Below are positions 4,550-58,309 of a stretch of DNA of 64,000 nucleotides, one piece after another. Numbering within the stretch: position 1 is the stretch's first letter; every line of letters begins with the position of its first letter. A program made the position numbers and the translations under genes. The notes under the pieces were generated by a model. The model was not told the origin of the DNA. It did no database searches and saw only the letters and a list, made by a program, of their open reading frames with translations. Source of the stretch: an uncultured Cocleimonas sp. (GTDB lineage Bacteria > Pseudomonadota > Gammaproteobacteria > Thiotrichales > Thiotrichaceae); NCBI RefSeq assembly GCF_947495625.1, contig NZ_CANLZW010000019.1, positions 1-64,000 on the forward strand. Direction: 5' to 3'.

Positions 4550-4854
4550 TTAAAGCCTCCGTCCTTATATGCAAAATCAACTATATCATAAGATTTAGCT
4601 GAAACCTTTGGATGAACCATGCACAGGATCAGCCCAATACATAAATCCAGATTTGATTATTAGTACGGTTTTTTTTAGTTCTTGTATGCCAGATAAGGGA
4701 ATTTATTTGCAAAAAGTGAGGGGGGATATAAAATATGACACCAAGAAACAGCAAAGGAGTGTTAACTACACCCCCCTACTTTTAGATGGTTTTTATTAAA
4801 TCGACACTGGATCGATTTAAGCTGTATTCAAATTTAATTTTATTTGACTGTAAT
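4550..4854. other. 305-bp gap between hemE end and msrP start
   Basis: Apart from one C6 element in plus orientation and a weak inverted match (AAGTGAGGGGGGATA near 4715) there is no gene or clear terminator. The msrP promoter should lie at the left end. Confidence 0.6.
4769..4781 (+). repeat. C6 element core (plus orientation), between two minus-strand genes
   Basis: CACCCCCCTACTT followed by TTAGATGGTTTTTA. The first two bases of the 15-mer are changed. No plus-strand gene precedes it; it lies 220 bp upstream of msrP, pointing away from that gene. Confidence 0.85.
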
Positions 4855-9046: not shown

Positions 9047-9076
9047 GTCACCCCCCTACTTTAAGGGTGTTTTTTG
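9047..9076 (+). terminator. C6 element forming the smpB terminator
   Basis: Exact GTCACCCCCCTACTT, then TAAGGGTG and a T-run. CACCC pairs with GGGTG to give a 5-bp stem before the T-run, so this copy is a plausible intrinsic terminator for smpB, facing dnaQ. Confidence 0.85.
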
Positions 9077-15504: not shown

Positions 15505-15520
15505 AAGTAGGGGGGGGGTC
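15505..15520 (-). terminator. C6 element variant (nine C) after ppiD
   Basis: On the minus strand a run of nine C (instead of six) is followed by TACTTATAAGGGGTTTTTAA; CCCC can pair with GGGG before the T-run. It lies 50 bp after the ppiD stop, in the right orientation to terminate it. The bases before the C-run differ from the consensus (GAC for GTCA). Confidence 0.75.
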
Positions 15521-17684: not shown

Positions 17685-17699
17685 AAGTAGGGGGGTGAC
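17685..17699 (-). repeat. C6 element (minus orientation), between tRNA-Asp and ppiD
   Basis: Exact AAGTAGGGGGGTGAC. On the minus strand it follows the tRNA-Asp terminator by about 80 bp and is itself followed by ATAGGCATATTTTTTTAA. It occupies a 335-bp gap with no recognisable gene; the ppiD promoter must lie on its left. Confidence 0.9.
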
Positions 17700-26189: not shown

Positions 26190-27044
26190 ATGTCGGCTCA
26201 AATTATCGATGGAAAAAAAGTTTCAGCAGAAGTAAGAAACGAATTAAAAGCAGCAATAGACGTGAGAAACTCACAAGGAAAACGGCCTCCGGGTCTTGCT
26301 GTTATTCTCGTTGGCAGTGACCCTGCCTCTGAAGTTTATGTTGGTCATAAACGCAGAGCGTGCTCTGAAGTGGGTATTTATTCACGCTCTTATGACTTAC
26401 CTGAAGAAACCACTCATCATGAGCTTGTTTCATTAATTGACCAGCTAAATAGCGATCATTTCATCGATGGCATACTTGTTCAATTACCTTTACCTGACCA
26501 TCTTGATGCTTCATTAATCATTGAACGAATTGACCCGAGTAAAGATGTTGATGGCTTTCACCCCGTAAACGTTGGTCGTTTAACGTTACGTATTCCAGGT
26601 CTTAGACCATGCACGCCTTACGGAATAATTAGATTACTCGAATCTATAGATGTAAACCCTAAAGGCTTAAATGCGGTTGTTGTTGGCGCATCAAATATTG
26701 TGGGGCGACCCATGATGCTAGAGCTACTTCTGCAAGGTGCTACCGTTACAGTATGTCACCGCTTTACAAAAAATACCCCAGAACTAGTGTCTCAAGCTGA
26801 CCTAGTCGTAGTTGCCGTAGGTAAAGCTGGGCTTGTCAAAGGCGAGTGGATTAAACCTGGCGCGGTAGTGATTGATGTTGGCGTTAACCGCTTAGAAGAC
26901 GGAACACTTGCAGGTGATGTTGAATTCAAAGAAGCATCTGAAAGAGCTTCATGGATTACCCCCGTCCCTGGTGGAGTTGGCCCTATGACAGTTGCCATGC
27001 TAATGAAGAACACATTATCTGCCTGCGAAAAACATCAATTCTGA
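26190..27044 (+). CDS. folD: Bifunctional methylenetetrahydrofolate dehydrogenase / methenyl-THF cyclohydrolase
   Basis: A 284-residue cytosolic enzyme interconverting 5,10-methylene-, methenyl- and 10-formyl-THF with NADP. Signatures are [17 protein letters not shown] (catalytic Lys in the YVxxK pattern), [38 protein letters not shown] and the C-terminal [15 protein letters not shown]. Full length. Followed immediately by a large inverted C6-element pair. Confidence 0.97.
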
Positions 27045-27055
27045 TTGTTAATATT

Positions 27056-27138
27056 AATTAGGTCACCCCCCTACTTTTAGCCTGTTTTTTATTAAACTGA
27101 AAAACAGGCTAAAAGTAGGGGGGGGGGGTGACCTAATT
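27056..27138. repeat. Inverted pair of C6 elements between convergent genes (bidirectional terminator)
   Basis: Left arm 27056-27089 begins AATTAGGTCACCCCCCTACT and continues TTTAGCCTG plus five T; the right arm 27100-27138 is its reverse complement with a 10-nt loop between. The only difference is the homopolymer: six C on the left, eleven G on the right. The foot carries T-runs on both strands, so folD and the facing gene can both terminate here. Confidence 0.95.
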
Positions 27139-27170: not shown

Positions 27171-27716
27171 CTATTTCGGGCAGCTCGCCTTATCTCCGGG
27201 TACTTTTCCCGCAACTTTCAAGAACGCTTCAAAAGGCGACATAACTTTCATTGCCTCACCTTTGGGTCCTTTGAATTTTAATTTACCCGTCATCATGGCA
27301 CCCATTGCACCGCAACCAAATGAACCTCTACCCATACATGCCCAGTTTTTATCGCTAGCATGCATTAAGTAATCCACATTAAAATTCATCTTCTTACCAT
27401 CAGGCTTACCCGCTGCGACACACATTGCCGCGCCATTCTTATTTTGAATTATCAACTGTACTTTGGTTTGTTCGCCACATTTCGAACGATACATCTGCAC
27501 TAATTTATAACCACGTTTAGCATCATTATTAATCCAGGAATAACCACCCGCTACTTCTTCATTAATATCGACATCAACTAGCTGCTTAGTGAGTACTGGA
27601 CTTGCATTCCAGGCATTACACGCTTTTTTAGCCCATGCTGCATCCATATAAGTATCTGCTAGCGCTGGGCTAGCCGACGCTCCCAATAAAAACATTAATC
27701 CAAGCTTTTTATACAT
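27171..27716 (-). CDS. Secreted SCP2-like (sterol-carrier-fold) protein
   Basis: A 181-residue protein with a signal peptide cleaved after SPALA. The C-terminal half has the look of an SCP2 lipid-binding domain: KVQLIIQNKNGAAMCV, then the helix-turn GAMGAMMTGKLKFKGPKGEAM and KVMSPFEAFLKVAG, which matches the family's late GKLKxxGD..LAMK segment. Seven or so cysteines suggest disulfides in the periplasm. It lies downstream of a FadL porin in the same direction, so a periplasmic carrier for fatty acids or other hydrophobic compounds is plausible but inferred. Confidence 0.7.
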   Translation of the reverse strand: MYKKLGLMFLLGASASPALADTYMDAAWAKKACNAWNASPVLTKQLVDVDINEEVAGGYSWINNDAKRGYKLVQMYRSKCGEQTKVQLIIQNKNGAAMCVAAGKPDGKKMNFNVDYLMHASDKNWACMGRGSFGCGAMGAMMTGKLKFKGPKGEAMKVMSPFEAFLKVAGKVPGDKASCPK

Positions 27717-29381: not shown

Positions 29382-29396
29382 ATCACCCCCCTACTT
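29382..29396 (+). repeat. C6 element (plus orientation) between fadL-like gene and tgt
   Basis: ATCACCCCCCTACTT (first base changed), then TACTCAGC and a run of six T. It lies in the 420-bp divergent gap, about 210 bp upstream of the fadL-like start and pointing away from it, with no plus-strand gene before it. Nothing else recognised in the gap, which must contain both promoters. Confidence 0.88.
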
Positions 29397-29555: not shown

Positions 29556-30716
<1,161 letters not shown>

Positions 30717-30746: not shown

Positions 30747-30777
30747 GTCACCCCCCTACTTTGGGGGCTTTTTTTTA
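30747..30777 (+). terminator. C6 element forming the tgt terminator
   Basis: Exact GTCACCCCCCTACTT, then TGGGGGC and a T-run. CCCCC pairs with GGGGG (loop TACTT), giving a strong short hairpin, 30 bp after the tgt stop. Confidence 0.88.
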
Positions 30778-32791: not shown

Positions 32792-35254
32792 TCAACGAAA
32801 TAAAGAAACCGGTACCACTGACAATAAACCTCTGACATTTAAATAACCGGCAATACTCACAAGTGTTGCTCCTAAAGCTGTCCCGATAAAGATTAATCCC
32901 AGATTGATCTGTGGAGTCAATTCGAATAGCTGGTAAGCTGCTGCATTCCCTGCAATCAATGCTAAAACTGCGGCTAAAAATCCTGCTAAACCACCAATCA
33001 TGGCAAACTCTAGTATCAGGTTACGACGCAAATAGGCTCTATTAGCACCGAGCGTTTTTAGAATTGCGAGCTCTTTTCTGCGCAATGCTTTTTGTGACTG
33101 CAAAGCGGCAAACAGAACCACTACTCCTGCTACTAAGGTAAACAAAAATATCGCCTGTACCGCGAAAGCCGCTTTGTTAATTAAGTCTCGCACCTGAGTC
33201 AGTATCGCGCTGATATCGATATCAGTCACACTTGGGAATTTCTTTATTAAATTCGGTAAAACTTCTGTTTTGGTTTTATCCAGATGGATACTGGTGATAA
33301 AGGTTTTCGGGTAATTCTCAAAAGCATTAGGTGCTGCCAATACGAAAAAATTGGGCTTCATGCTATCCCACTGAACCGTTCGCATACTCGTGATTGTTTC
33401 GATTAATCGTTGACCCGCAATGTCAAAAGTCAGCTTATCACCCATCTTCACACCCAGATTATCTGCGATTCCCTGTTCCATAGAGAAGCCTGTCTGAGCA
33501 TCCTTTTCGAACCATTTACCTGCAGTAATGATATTTCCCTCGGGCATATCTTCGCTTGCCGATAGATTAAACTCACGAATTAACAAACGTTGCGCACGTT
33601 CATTTTCAGCGTATTTAGAATCATCAGGGGATATAGGCTTATCATTGACCTCAACTAATCGTCCCCGCACCATAGGATATATAGGCGCTTCGGTATTATC
33701 TTTAGCGAGTAATTCTTTTAGTGGCTTAACTTCATCTGGCTGGATATTAATCAGGAAATGATTAGGTGCGCCTTCAGGAAGACTCGCTTGCCAACGATCG
33801 ATAAGATCACTACGCAAAGTGGTTAATAGTAATAAACTAAATAAGCCCACACCAAAAACTACCACCATCAAAGCCATGCGACGGTTGGCTTTGGGTAGAT
33901 GCCAGCGCTCACCTATTTTACGAACCAGCTTTAGCATTAATAATGCACACACCCAGAAAACAGCCAGTGCGATGATTACCGCAACCAATAGATAAAAGCT
34001 CAGCTTGATATCACCTGTTTGCAGCCACATCAAACCCAGTATTGATAGGGTTAAACTAAAAACAGGCAACAATAGTGGAGCTTTTGAAACAGTACTTGCG
34101 CGCTGAAGTATTTGGACAGGCGCTGTTTTCACTAGTTGGAATAGGTGAGGTGCAGAAAAACCAATCACTAATACCTGTGAAGTCAGTAATCCCACCCAAA
34201 CAGGAGTCCATCCCGGACTGGGCAATTCCTGACCGATAAAATCCTGTAAGTAATTCGCCAAAAAGAACTGGATAAAATATCCAAAGAGAGAACCAACAAT
34301 CCCTGCGATAAGTGCAACCACCAATAACTGGAATAGGTAATGTTTTGTAATTTGCCAGCGAGATGCACCCATGGTTTTAAGTACAGCTACCGCAGAGGTT
34401 TCATGTCTGGTTAGACTATAACTACTCAAAGCTATTCCAGCGCCCGCTAGAATAACAGCCAATAACGCCGCCATTTTCAAGAAACGTTGTCCGCGTTGTA
34501 AGGCTTGTTGAATGGCCGGCATACCATCTTCTAGTGTTCGAATTCTTTCATTCTGTTTGAGCTTTGGCTTCAACCAATTACCAAACGATTTGACCTGCTG
34601 CTCATTACCCGCGAATAACAAACTGTAGCTAGCTCGACTTGCTCCCGTTAATAATCCAGTCGCAGGAAGTTGCTCTATAGGCATGATCAAAGTCGGCGCA
34701 AACTGAAAAGCATTACTCGCCTGGTCCGGCATCTTCTGGATGATTTTCGCCAGCGTCTTTTCGGTTTGTCCTAATTGAACAATATCTCCAGCGGTGGTTC
34801 CCAGGGAAACGAACAATCTGTTATCCGCAATGATTTCATTATCCGCCAAAGTATCAATGGAGGTTATATTAATCACCCCCCCACTTTTAGCCATTGTTTC
34901 TATTTCACCGTGTAACGGGTATTTATCTGATACTGCTTTAACTTGCGCTAATTGAAACTTCTCTCCACGAGAAACCATGCTGCTGAAAGTAATGGTACTC
35001 GCAGTTCTCAAACCTCTTTGCTCGGCTTCTTTTAGATAGGCTTCATCAATAGGTCGTGTCGATACGATAACCATATCACCACCCAATAATTGCGTAGCCT
35101 GAGCATTCATCACTCGATCAGCTCGATCAGTAAAAAAGCCTACTGAGGTTACGGCAACAACTGCAACGAGTAGTGCTAAAAAGAGTAAGCGCGTTTCTGC
35201 GAGTCGCCAGAAACGTTTAGTCTGAATTAAAAACTGCTGGATTAAAGATATCAT
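32792..35254 (-). CDS. ybbP: FtsX-like ABC transporter permease (YbbP)
   Basis: An 820-residue MacB/FtsX-type permease with an N-terminal membrane helix, a large periplasmic domain, a cluster of helices in the middle and three C-terminal helices around a second periplasmic loop. Cytoplasmic coupling segments AVLKTMGASRWQITKHYL and AILKTLGANRAYLRRNLI mark the two FtsX domains. It pairs with YbbA, 24 bp upstream. Likely a mechanotransmitting or lipid/lipoprotein-handling ABC system rather than a classic importer. A C6-like sequence is embedded in the first periplasmic domain. Confidence 0.92.
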   Translation of the reverse strand: MISLIQQFLIQTKRFWRLAETRLLFLALLVAVVAVTSVGFFTDRADRVMNAQATQLLGGDMVIVSTRPIDEAYLKEAEQRGLRTASTITFSSMVSRGEKFQLAQVKAVSDKYPLHGEIETMAKSGGVINITSIDTLADNEIIADNRLFVSLGTTAGDIVQLGQTEKTLAKIIQKMPDQASNAFQFAPTLIMPIEQLPATGLLTGASRASYSLLFAGNEQQVKSFGNWLKPKLKQNERIRTLEDGMPAIQQALQRGQRFLKMAALLAVILAGAGIALSSYSLTRHETSAVAVLKTMGASRWQITKHYLFQLLVVALIAGIVGSLFGYFIQFFLANYLQDFIGQELPSPGWTPVWVGLLTSQVLVIGFSAPHLFQLVKTAPVQILQRASTVSKAPLLLPVFSLTLSILGLMWLQTGDIKLSFYLLVAVIIALAVFWVCALLMLKLVRKIGERWHLPKANRRMALMVVVFGVGLFSLLLLTTLRSDLIDRWQASLPEGAPNHFLINIQPDEVKPLKELLAKDNTEAPIYPMVRGRLVEVNDKPISPDDSKYAENERAQRLLIREFNLSASEDMPEGNIITAGKWFEKDAQTGFSMEQGIADNLGVKMGDKLTFDIAGQRLIETITSMRTVQWDSMKPNFFVLAAPNAFENYPKTFITSIHLDKTKTEVLPNLIKKFPSVTDIDISAILTQVRDLINKAAFAVQAIFLFTLVAGVVVLFAALQSQKALRRKELAILKTLGANRAYLRRNLILEFAMIGGLAGFLAAVLALIAGNAAAYQLFELTPQINLGLIFIGTALGATLVSIAGYLNVRGLLSVVPVSLFR
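34872..34886 (+). repeat. C6-like element embedded in the ybbP coding sequence
   Basis: ATCACCCCCCCACTT followed by TTAGCC, the same continuation as the intergenic copy at 27 kb. One consensus T is replaced by C. On the coding strand it yields AKSGGVI within a periplasmic loop (GEIETMAKSGGVINITS). Confidence 0.6.
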
Positions 35255-38587: not shown

Positions 38588-38618
38588 ACACCCCCCTACT
38601 TTAAGGCGCTTTTTTTCA
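38588..38618 (+). repeat. C6 element (plus orientation) between two minus-strand genes
   Basis: ACACCCCCCTACTT followed by TAAGGCGC and a T-run of seven. It stands 54 bp upstream of the pseudouridine synthase start, pointing away from it, and just after the end of the next minus-strand gene, opposite to both genes. Confidence 0.85.
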
Positions 38619-43089: not shown

Positions 43090-43219
43090 GTCACCCCCCT
43101 ACTTTTAAGTGATTTTTATGCGGCTGCGCCTACCCTACGGTAAGCATTAAACAACAATGCTTTTGTCTCGCTATATCTCGGCTCATTTCGTTGTTTGAAA
43201 TGACTAAAGGAACTTATGC
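43090..43219 (+). repeat. Composite 130-bp repeat, copy A, starting with a C6 element
   Basis: Begins with exact GTCACCCCCCTACTT, continues TTAAGTGATTTTTATG and a GC-richer central part with AAACAAC / GTTGTTT arms, and ends at AACTTATGC. Copy B 3 kb away is identical at 128 of 130 positions. Lies five bases after the tpm stop. Confidence 0.93.
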
Positions 43220-43231
43220 TTTGCGGAATGA

Positions 43232-43271
43232 TTTACGTTTTTATTTTTTAAAAACGTAAATAGAATTTATG
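43232..43271. repeat. Palindromic ACGT module shared with the 45.6-kb repeat
   Basis: TTTACGTTTTT and AAAAACGTAAA form an 11-bp stem, followed by TAGAATTTATG. The same hairpin and tail occur directly after the C6 element at 45.6 kb. The 260 bp from here to the acyltransferase start hold nothing else recognised. Confidence 0.85.
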
Positions 43272-44648: not shown

Positions 44649-44677
44649 GACACCCCCTACCTTTTACGGGATTTTTT
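44649..44677 (+). repeat. Decayed C6 element after the acyltransferase gene
   Basis: GACACCCCCTACCTT followed by TTACGGG and a T-run. One C is lost and one gained relative to consensus. Starts three bases after the acyltransferase stop, so it is probably its terminator. Confidence 0.75.
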
Positions 44678-45635: not shown

Positions 45636-45698
45636 GTCACCCCCCTACTTTAAATGATATTACGTTTTTACTTTTAAAAAACGTAAATAGAATTTATG
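45636..45698 (+). repeat. C6 element fused to the ACGT hairpin module
   Basis: Exact GTCACCCCCCTACTT, a short spacer TAAATGATAT, then TACGTTTTT / AAAAACGTA hairpin and TAGAATTTATG. It equals copy A of the composite repeat with the central ~115 bp missing. About 300 bp after tspO and 90 bp before the next gene. Confidence 0.9.
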
Positions 45699-46105: not shown

Positions 46106-46235
46106 GTCACCCCCCTACTTTTAAGTGATTTTTATGCGGCTGCGCCTTCCCTACGGTAAGCATTAAACAACAATGCTTTTGTCTCGCTATATCTCGGCTC
46201 ATTTCGTTGTTTGAAATGACTAAAGGAATTTATGC
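46106..46235 (+). repeat. Composite 130-bp repeat, copy B
   Basis: Same as copy A at 43 kb with two substitutions; begins with exact GTCACCCCCCTACTT and ends AATTTATGC. Lies 24 bp after the ABM gene and 15 bp before the end of a facing gene. Confidence 0.93.
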
Positions 46236-46642: not shown

Positions 46643-46671
46643 GTCACCCCCCTACTTTAAGGGTGTTTTTC
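46643..46671 (+). repeat. C6 element (plus orientation) between two minus-strand genes
   Basis: Exact GTCACCCCCCTACTT, then TAAGGGTG and a T-run; the same hairpin-forming version as after smpB. It is 36 bp upstream of the hypothetical gene's start and 40 bp beyond the GH26 gene end, but points opposite to both. Confidence 0.88.
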
Positions 46672-48834: not shown

Positions 48835-48863
48835 TGACACCCCCTACTTTTGGGCACTATTTC
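48835..48863 (+). repeat. Decayed C6 element after the toxin gene
   Basis: TGACACCCCCTACTT followed by TTGGGCACT; five C rather than six. Lies 14 bp after the toxin stop; the T-run is weak. Confidence 0.7.
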
Positions 48864-49744: not shown

Positions 49745-49774
49745 AACACCCCCCTACTTTTAGGGTGTTTTTGT
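49745..49774 (+). terminator. C6 element as terminator between convergent genes
   Basis: AACACCC and GGGTGTT form a perfect 7-bp stem around the CCCTACTTTTA loop, then a T-run. Best terminator-like version of the element; 48 bp after the secreted-protein gene. Confidence 0.9.
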
Positions 49775-53403: not shown

Positions 53404-53434
53404 GTCACCCCCCTACTTTCAGGCACTTTTTTAT
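53404..53434 (+). repeat. C6 element (plus orientation) between asparagine synthase and sodB
   Basis: Exact GTCACCCCCCTACTT then TCAGGCAC and a T-run. AAAAAGT before it can pair with ACTTTTT after it, a 7-bp outer stem. It lies 68 bp upstream of the asparagine synthase start, pointing away from it, and 230 bp upstream of sodB. The rest of the gap shows only promoter-like A/T-rich sequence. Confidence 0.88.
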
Positions 53435-58249: not shown

Positions 58250-58309
58250 TAAGTAGGGGGGTGACTTTCTTGGCTCTTAGTTAGCCTATGAAAGTCACCC
58301 CCCTACTTA
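58250..58309. repeat. Perfect inverted pair of C6 elements between convergent genes
   Basis: Twenty-bp arms (TAAGTAGGGGGGTGACTTTC and its exact complement) with a 20-nt loop. Lies 18 bp after prfC and 12 bp from the end of the facing metalloprotease gene. The plus copy is followed by ATAGCGAG and a T-run. Acts as, or replaces, a bidirectional terminator. Confidence 0.95.

Follow-up and report, generated by a model that had tools for sequence, protein, structure and literature searches.

A dispersed C-tract element with clade-specific spellings in Cocleimonas, a candidate DNA uptake sequence

In the window, by which we mean the whole 64,000-nucleotide stretch of DNA analysed here, a palindrome at 27056-27138 lies between two convergent genes, folD (26190-27044, +) and an SCP2-like gene (27171-27716, −). 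The folD product matches two folD domains in Pfam (E 3.4e-68 and 1.9e-41), and the SCP2-like gene matches SCP2 at E 4.4e-4 and 21.0 bits, slightly below the cut-off of 21.3. The left arm (27056-27089) reads AATTAGGTCA-C6-TACTTTTAGCCTGTTTTT, the loop occupies 27090-27099, and the right arm (27100-27138) reads AAAAACAGGCTAAAAGTA-G11-TGACCTAATT. We verified what the earlier note had described as an uneven palindrome between convergent genes: the arms are exact complements except that C6 (27066-27071) faces G11 (27118-27128), a tract that lies outside any reading frame with convergent genes on both sides. Folded as RNA, the palindrome is predicted to reach −56.4 kcal/mol (z −9.4) on the plus strand and −53.3 kcal/mol (z −11.0) on the minus strand. 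Known RNA families gave 30 matches over it (E up to 1), nearly all of them hairpin-shaped microRNA models, and none at the gathering score. The window opens with a perfect 15-bp tandem repeat (1-92, 6.1 copies) that reaches the contig start. The palindrome is made up of two inverted copies of a dispersed element, and its features are as follows.

27056-27089 (+): left element of the pair, with flank, CA, C6 at 27066-27071, TACTTT and T tract; Cocleimonas flava has a C6 copy here too
27100-27138 (−): right element, spelled as the left, with a tract of eleven (27118-27128); degenerate complement in C. flava
27056-27138 (no strand): entire palindrome, a possible two-way terminator judging from its RNA fold, with convergent genes on either side

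The earlier note's claim of a repeated element is supported across the genome. The 13-mer CACCCCCCTACTT has 777 exact copies (343 + 434) in 4.6 Mb, and its reversed control has none. Allowing up to two mismatches, CCCCCCTACTTT matches 26 times in the window, compared to 3.1 expected and at most 8 in any shuffle. The density of the element is about one per 6 kb, and its further occurrences in the window are listed below, where the core runs from the C tract to TACTT.

1191-1201 (−): element core; mutated, with no insertion gap, in C. flava
4771-4781 (+): element core; common to C. flava
9051-9061 (+): element core; common to C. flava
15505-15518 (−): element core with a tract of nine; C6 in C. 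flava
17685-17695 (−): element core; mutated, with no insertion gap, in C. flava
29386-29396 (+): element core; common to C. flava, tail aligns poorly
30295-30305 (+): core match within an ORF, without T tract, which may be a chance coding match; identical in C. flava
30751-30761 (+): element core; common to C. flava
34876-34887 (+): variant core CCCCCCCACTTT; common to C. flava
38591-38601 (+): element core; probable counterpart at C. flava C1:293898, outside the aligned blocks
43094-43104 (+): element core, pattern match
44653-44663 (+): variant core with C5 (CCCCCTACCTT); compared with C. flava
45640-45650 (+): element core followed by a second repeat, pattern match
46110-46120 (+): element core, pattern match
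46647-46657 (+): element core, pattern match
48840-48849 (+): element core with C5, pattern match
49749-49759 (+): element core, pattern match
53408-53418 (+): element core, pattern match
58251-58308 (no strand): second inverted pair of the window, in the opposite arrangement, with cores at 58251-58261 (−) and 58298-58308 (+); predicted RNA fold −45.7 kcal/mol, z −8.6

The 118 copies profiled in the window's genome, drawn from 453,700 bases (the window and 20 stretches picked after a partial view of the match lists, hence not random), give a-a-a-G-T-C-A, C6, TACTT(T/A), n, a/g, g, g, c, n, n, TTTTT. In this genome the first T tract consists of three T only, and the second, at positions 13-17 after the C tract, is found in 85-97% of copies. 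Perfect cores outnumber singly mismatched ones in the sampled stretches, 111 vs 19 here and 85 vs 26 in C. flava, while the reversed core yields none of either.

The element also adjoins other repeats. At 45654-45698 a second repeat (ATGATATTACGTTT..., with a small inverted repeat at its end) stands directly after an element core and replaces the usual tail; it has a near copy at 43233-43271, and further occurrences lie in stretches L012 (near 6864 and 9148) and L035 (near 984). Its exact 14-mer occurs 39 times in this genome, 11 times in C. flava, 9 times in G004, once in G008 and not at all in the eight other genomes of the genus (control 0). A 130-bp repeat that starts with the element is present at 43090-43219 and 46106-46235 with 98% identity.

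Between positions 793 and 45,331 the window contains blocks that match C. flava contig C1 in the same order, with 75-88% identity. Over the eight C6 copies in these blocks, identity amounts to 99/104 in the 13-bp core, 33/40 in the T tract, 583/817 in the flanks and 32/56 in the spacer. Evidence on insertion comes from only the two copies private to the window that align, 1191 and 17685 (38591, 43094 and 45640 lie outside the aligned blocks): at both, C. flava has a mutated motif and no gap across the core, with a one-base gap immediately beside the core at 1191. Small alignment gaps also occur near the shared copies 9051, 15505 and 29386.

The tract is six bases long in 109 of 116 copies in this genome (5 in two, 7 in three, 9 and 11 in one each) and in 153 of 165 in C. 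flava (5, 7 and 9 in three each; 8, 11 and 13 in one each). At the site after folD, C. flava has a C6 element, and the degenerate complement that takes the place of the right arm still folds, at −25.3 kcal/mol compared to −56.4 in the window. Because C. flava has both C6 and a degenerate second arm at this site, the G11 arm appears to be a local expansion; the earlier suggestion that one arm had expanded is thus backed by the modal length of six and by the C. flava site. Elsewhere in C. flava (L029) there is another pure C11, and therefore expansions by five bases occurred more than once. The CA beside the tract is kept in the window C11 and in one C. flava C11, and these two look like pure expansions. 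Several tracts of eight and nine look like the product of an A-to-C change in the adjoining CA, fusing the tract with the neighbouring C, rather than of slippage. The second long tract that the earlier note placed at 15.5 kb does exist (nine bases, 15510-15518), but slippage alone does not explain it: aligned with C. flava, its adjoining CA is changed, so that it reads as a substitution combined with slippage by about one base.

For the G11 arm, slippage is a plausible reading, and most likely the tract grew by slippage in one arm after the two arms of the pair had become homogenised. From the degenerate C. flava arm and the similarity of arms within pairs, we infer that an imperfect pair was probably homogenised into a perfect palindrome before one arm expanded. 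The competing view, that G11 is an assembly or sequencing error and the true count is nearer six, draws on the proneness of homopolymers inside hairpins to errors and on our use of one draft assembly of 89 contigs; since long tracts, including a pure C11 and a C13, also occur in the separate assembly of C. flava, we regard such an error as unlikely, though worth keeping in mind.

Copies of the element fall outside predicted ORFs in 115 of 118 cases in this genome, in which 85% of the DNA is coding, and in 161 of 169 cases in C. flava, whose loci for placement counts were partly chosen because the element was present. Four copies in this genome, at stretch ends, are unplaced. Convergent gaps hold 39 of the 111 placed copies and 18% of the intergenic length, and divergent gaps hold 15 of the 111 and 26%. 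Relative to tandem genes, the element points with transcription 29 times and against it 28 times (41 and 47 in C. flava). With a looser pattern and crude gene calls, the share within ORFs is 9/108 in this genome, 7/74 in C. flava, 1/27 in G007, 5/22 in G010, 4/24 in G009 and 7/18 in G002; given this last figure, the element does not lie between genes to the same degree throughout the genus.

In at least the window's genome, the orientation of the element follows the replication strand. Fifteen stretches with negative GC skew carry 73 plus and 19 minus copies, and six with positive skew carry 3 plus and 23 minus, although stretches from the same contig cannot count as independent (among the matches listed, contig C2 has 53 copies, 48 of them plus). 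With the elements masked, single copies divide 84 lagging to 10 leading and paired copies 12 to 12. Stretch by stretch, orientation correlates with skew at −0.71 here and at −0.05 in C. flava, where sampled stretches hold copies on both strands and the count of 76:12 is weaker evidence because nearly all of these stretches share one skew sign. Unpaired copies in the sister genomes divide 13:1 in G004, G008 and G011 together, 17:7 in G007 (p 0.06), 9:3 in G002, 4:1 in G010 and 12:9 in G009. One run, G000:C2:76330-132343, holds 24 copies in 56 kb, all plus among the matches listed. A CCTCCC form in C. flava showed no link to one strand (3 and 3).

Strand polarity of this kind recalls KOPS and Chi, which are G-rich on the leading strand and polar along the chromosome. 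They are about 8 bp long, lie in coding DNA, where they are tolerated, have no T tracts and are kept in sister species. A polar site of this type, serving a segregation or repair enzyme with its G run on the leading strand, would account for the 84:10 division of single copies, and the element shares with KOPS and Chi its polarity along replication in this genome. It differs from them in its two T tracts and its intergenic placement (3 of 118 copies in ORFs), in its spelling changes and losses within the genus, being near absent from G001, G005 and G006 and differently flanked in sister clades, and in an orientation bias that is weak or absent in G009 (12:9) and G007 (17:7). We therefore think it improbable that the element is such a site.

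Inverted pairs with the C tracts outward are spaced 27-30 nt from T tract to T tract in 6 of 9 cases in this genome and 5 of 9 in C. flava. Their arms agree at variable positions more often than random ones do, 0.71 vs 0.50 here and 0.67 vs 0.48 in C. flava (10 pairs each; none of 5000 simulations as high), with extremes of 1.00 for the window pair and 0.27 for one other pair of the same genome. Such pairs form strong predicted hairpins and may end transcription; 7 of 10 lie between convergent genes in this genome and 2 of 7 placed pairs do so in C. flava. Single copies behave differently: the folding energy of native halves is −3.66, compared to −3.56 for swapped halves (sd of means 0.10), and −4.39 compared to −4.42 in C. 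flava. With no covariation of halves and no link to gene direction, single copies were rejected as terminators. That the whole family consists of transcription terminators, with C-rich hairpins that precede U tracts where genes end, would fit the strong folding of pairs, their convergent position in this genome and the 39 of 111 copies in convergent gaps that make up 18% of the intergenic length. Since native halves of single copies fold no better than swapped ones, element direction is unrelated to gene direction in both genomes and just two of the seven placed C. flava pairs are convergent, we give this explanation little credence.

Beyond the window's genome, the 13-mer spelled as in that genome occurs 721 times in C. 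flava (G003), 453 in G004, 388 in G011, 232 in G008 and 74 in G007, with 0-2 copies in the six other genomes of the genus; 27 genomes from outside the genus lack it. In a pattern scan of GTDB, the matches listed fall on 72 stretches, of which C. flava DSM 24830 accounts for 71 and an uncultured Cocleimonas for the remaining one; the trigger factor of C. flava is 98% identical to that of the window organism. The pattern typical of the window's genome had no match in viral contigs, so phage carriage was set aside. Scanning 63 genomes of the family, 12 of them from the genus, with a pattern of layout only (C6-N3-T3-N7-T4) gave 137-925 matches in 9 of the 12 genus genomes and 0-7 in the 51 others (reversed controls 0-1). 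The counts are 925 in G009, an overcount of elements because long tracts yield overlapping matches, 840 in G002, 617 in the window's genome, 529 in C. flava, 442 in G007, 393 in G004, 236 in G011, 143 in G008, 137 in G010, 9 in G001, 5 in G005 and 0 in G006. Among 274 genomes drawn from the class, more than 3 layout matches occur in the window's genome only and 1-3 in 25 others (reversed control at most 3 per genome). A class member of another family has two matches with G007-like spelling (G259:C7:103843-105642), for which transfer or contamination is possible.

The consensus spelling differs between these genomes. It is aaaGtCA-C6-TACTTT.aggc..TTTTT in the window's genome (108 copies) and aaag.CA-C6-TACTTTggGGcacTTTTTT in C. 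flava (74 copies), and, from samples of 3-27 copies in each of the other sisters, aaAAAGTACA-C6-.cCTTTTt..c..TTTT in G007 (27), atACCCaT-C7-TtTTTTTacAttTTTT in G009 (24), CCA-C7-TgTTTTTCG.tGtTTTGTA in G010 (22), atACCCAT-C6-TGTTTTTtAtATATTTTT in G002 (18), AAaTGACA-C6-TACTTTTT in G011 (7) and AAA..aCa-C6-TACTTTT in G004 (7). G008 and G001 contributed only 3 copies each to this sample, and G005 and G006 none. A trigger-factor tree, built from one gene and with no match in G004, supports the clades G009 with G002, the window's genome with C. flava, and G008 with G011, and places the element-poor G001 and G005 as sisters. Flank spellings agree with these clades, being alike within each of the three. 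The G008 assembly may mix strains because it holds two different trigger-factor genes (L177, L186). In G009, stretches L146-L148 may hold an array, with 12-mers such as CCCCACGAGTGT counted 40 times over 45 kb. The wider finding here, which goes beyond the earlier note, is a signal that spans the genome and is spelled differently in each clade.

REP elements with RAYT transposases are likewise intergenic, present in many copies, marked by GTAG and found in inverted pairs. Here single copies form no hairpin, and a Y1 transposase was not found in four of the seven carriers searched (C. flava, G004, G007 and G008; G010 and G011 were outside the search), and on this ground REP/RAYT was rejected; the transposase is present in the element-poor G001, G005 and G006. 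More broadly, a mobile repeat (REP/RAYT, MITE or similar) spread by insertion would suit the high copy number, the strong consensus, the GTAG at the G-rich end and the patchy carriage in the genus, but is most improbable given that the layout stays constant while flanks differ in sister clades and that neither of the two private sites that align has an insertion gap, on which ground we rejected an origin by insertion at these two sites.

We favour the reading that this dispersed element of about 30 bp is a DNA uptake sequence, with a probability of roughly 0.6. On the cell surface, a receptor that is probably a type IV minor pilin would read the C6 core, and the AT tracts 3' of it would help the DNA to bend into the pore. 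DNA from the same or a sister species would then be taken up preferentially, and the motif would accumulate through uptake bias and recombination. Recognition, uptake and drive are all read from the sequence pattern by analogy with known systems. High copy number, an excess of perfect over singly mismatched cores and spellings that follow phylogeny are traits of uptake sequences found here, as is, at two aligned sites, origin by mutation without an insertion gap. For the DUS, one study makes the case that recombination, and not point mutation, accounts for the spread (PMC2397512).

The machinery is present in most of the genus: ComEC in 11 of 12 genomes (all but G004) and, in 9 of 12, the window's genome among them, a minor pilin of the ComP_DUS family. 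The gene for this pilin lies at G000:C48:12282-12575 in the window's genome and at C3:457830-458138 in C. flava. The pilin was not found in the carriers G004, G008 and G010, whose completeness is 80-92%. Neither protein tracks carriage, as the element-poor G001, G005 and G006 have both, and the pilin family is common across the class, occurring in 28 of 39 genomes.

One trait of uptake sequences, the absence of orientation bias, does not hold for the element, with single copies at 84:10 here and 13:1 in G004, G008 and G011; known uptake signals are described as free of such bias (PMC1626085, PMC2346458). A speculative and rather doubtful extension of the uptake reading would accommodate the bias: in a third, independently evolved uptake system, motif direction might set the strand that enters, annealing to the lagging template might recombine best, and drive might fix one orientation per replichore.

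As of 2006, uptake signals were, according to PMC1626085, known only from Pasteurellaceae and Neisseriaceae, and in the open-licence literature that we searched we found none reported for Thiotrichaceae or Cocleimonas. If the uptake reading is true, the element would be a third case of an uptake signal, and one that is spelled in five or more ways within a single genus. With the cultured C. flava DSM 24830 and the element-poor sisters, the origin, change and loss of such signals could be followed in a natural experiment, and the replication-strand bias would give a new way to ask which strand enters the cell and how recombination then proceeds.

Many copies, a strong consensus, a leaning towards non-coding DNA, inverted pairs close together and clade dialects are described for USS and DUS (PMC1626085, PMC12616744, PMC3630211, PMC7811141). 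Their inner cores are given as GCGG and CTG, respectively (PMC12616744), and the density of both as near one per kb (PMC1626085). Like the Neisseriaceae DUS, whose pairs are linked to terminators (PMC3630211), the element has clade dialects, high copy number and inverted pairs. It differs from the DUS in having AT tracts and no CTG inner core; DUS have no flanking AT tracts, and no strand bias is reported for them. As described, the USS core is followed in the 3' direction by two AT-rich segments (PMC1626085, PMC12616744, PMC7811141), and ORFs contain 65% of the USS of H. influenzae (PMC2346458). Unlike the USS, the element has a core of C6 or longer without GCGG in all consensus spellings, occurs about once per 6 kb, lies almost entirely between genes in the window's genome and is strongly oriented by replication strand. 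Like the Pasteurellaceae USS, it has a strong consensus, prefers non-coding DNA, forms close inverted pairs and has clade dialects, of which the USS shows two. USS are also not insertions, and neither, at the two sites that align, are copies of the element. It also shares with the USS a GC-rich core followed by AT-rich 3' segments about a helical turn apart, an arrangement found as C6-N3-T3-N7-T4 in 9 of the 12 genomes of the genus.
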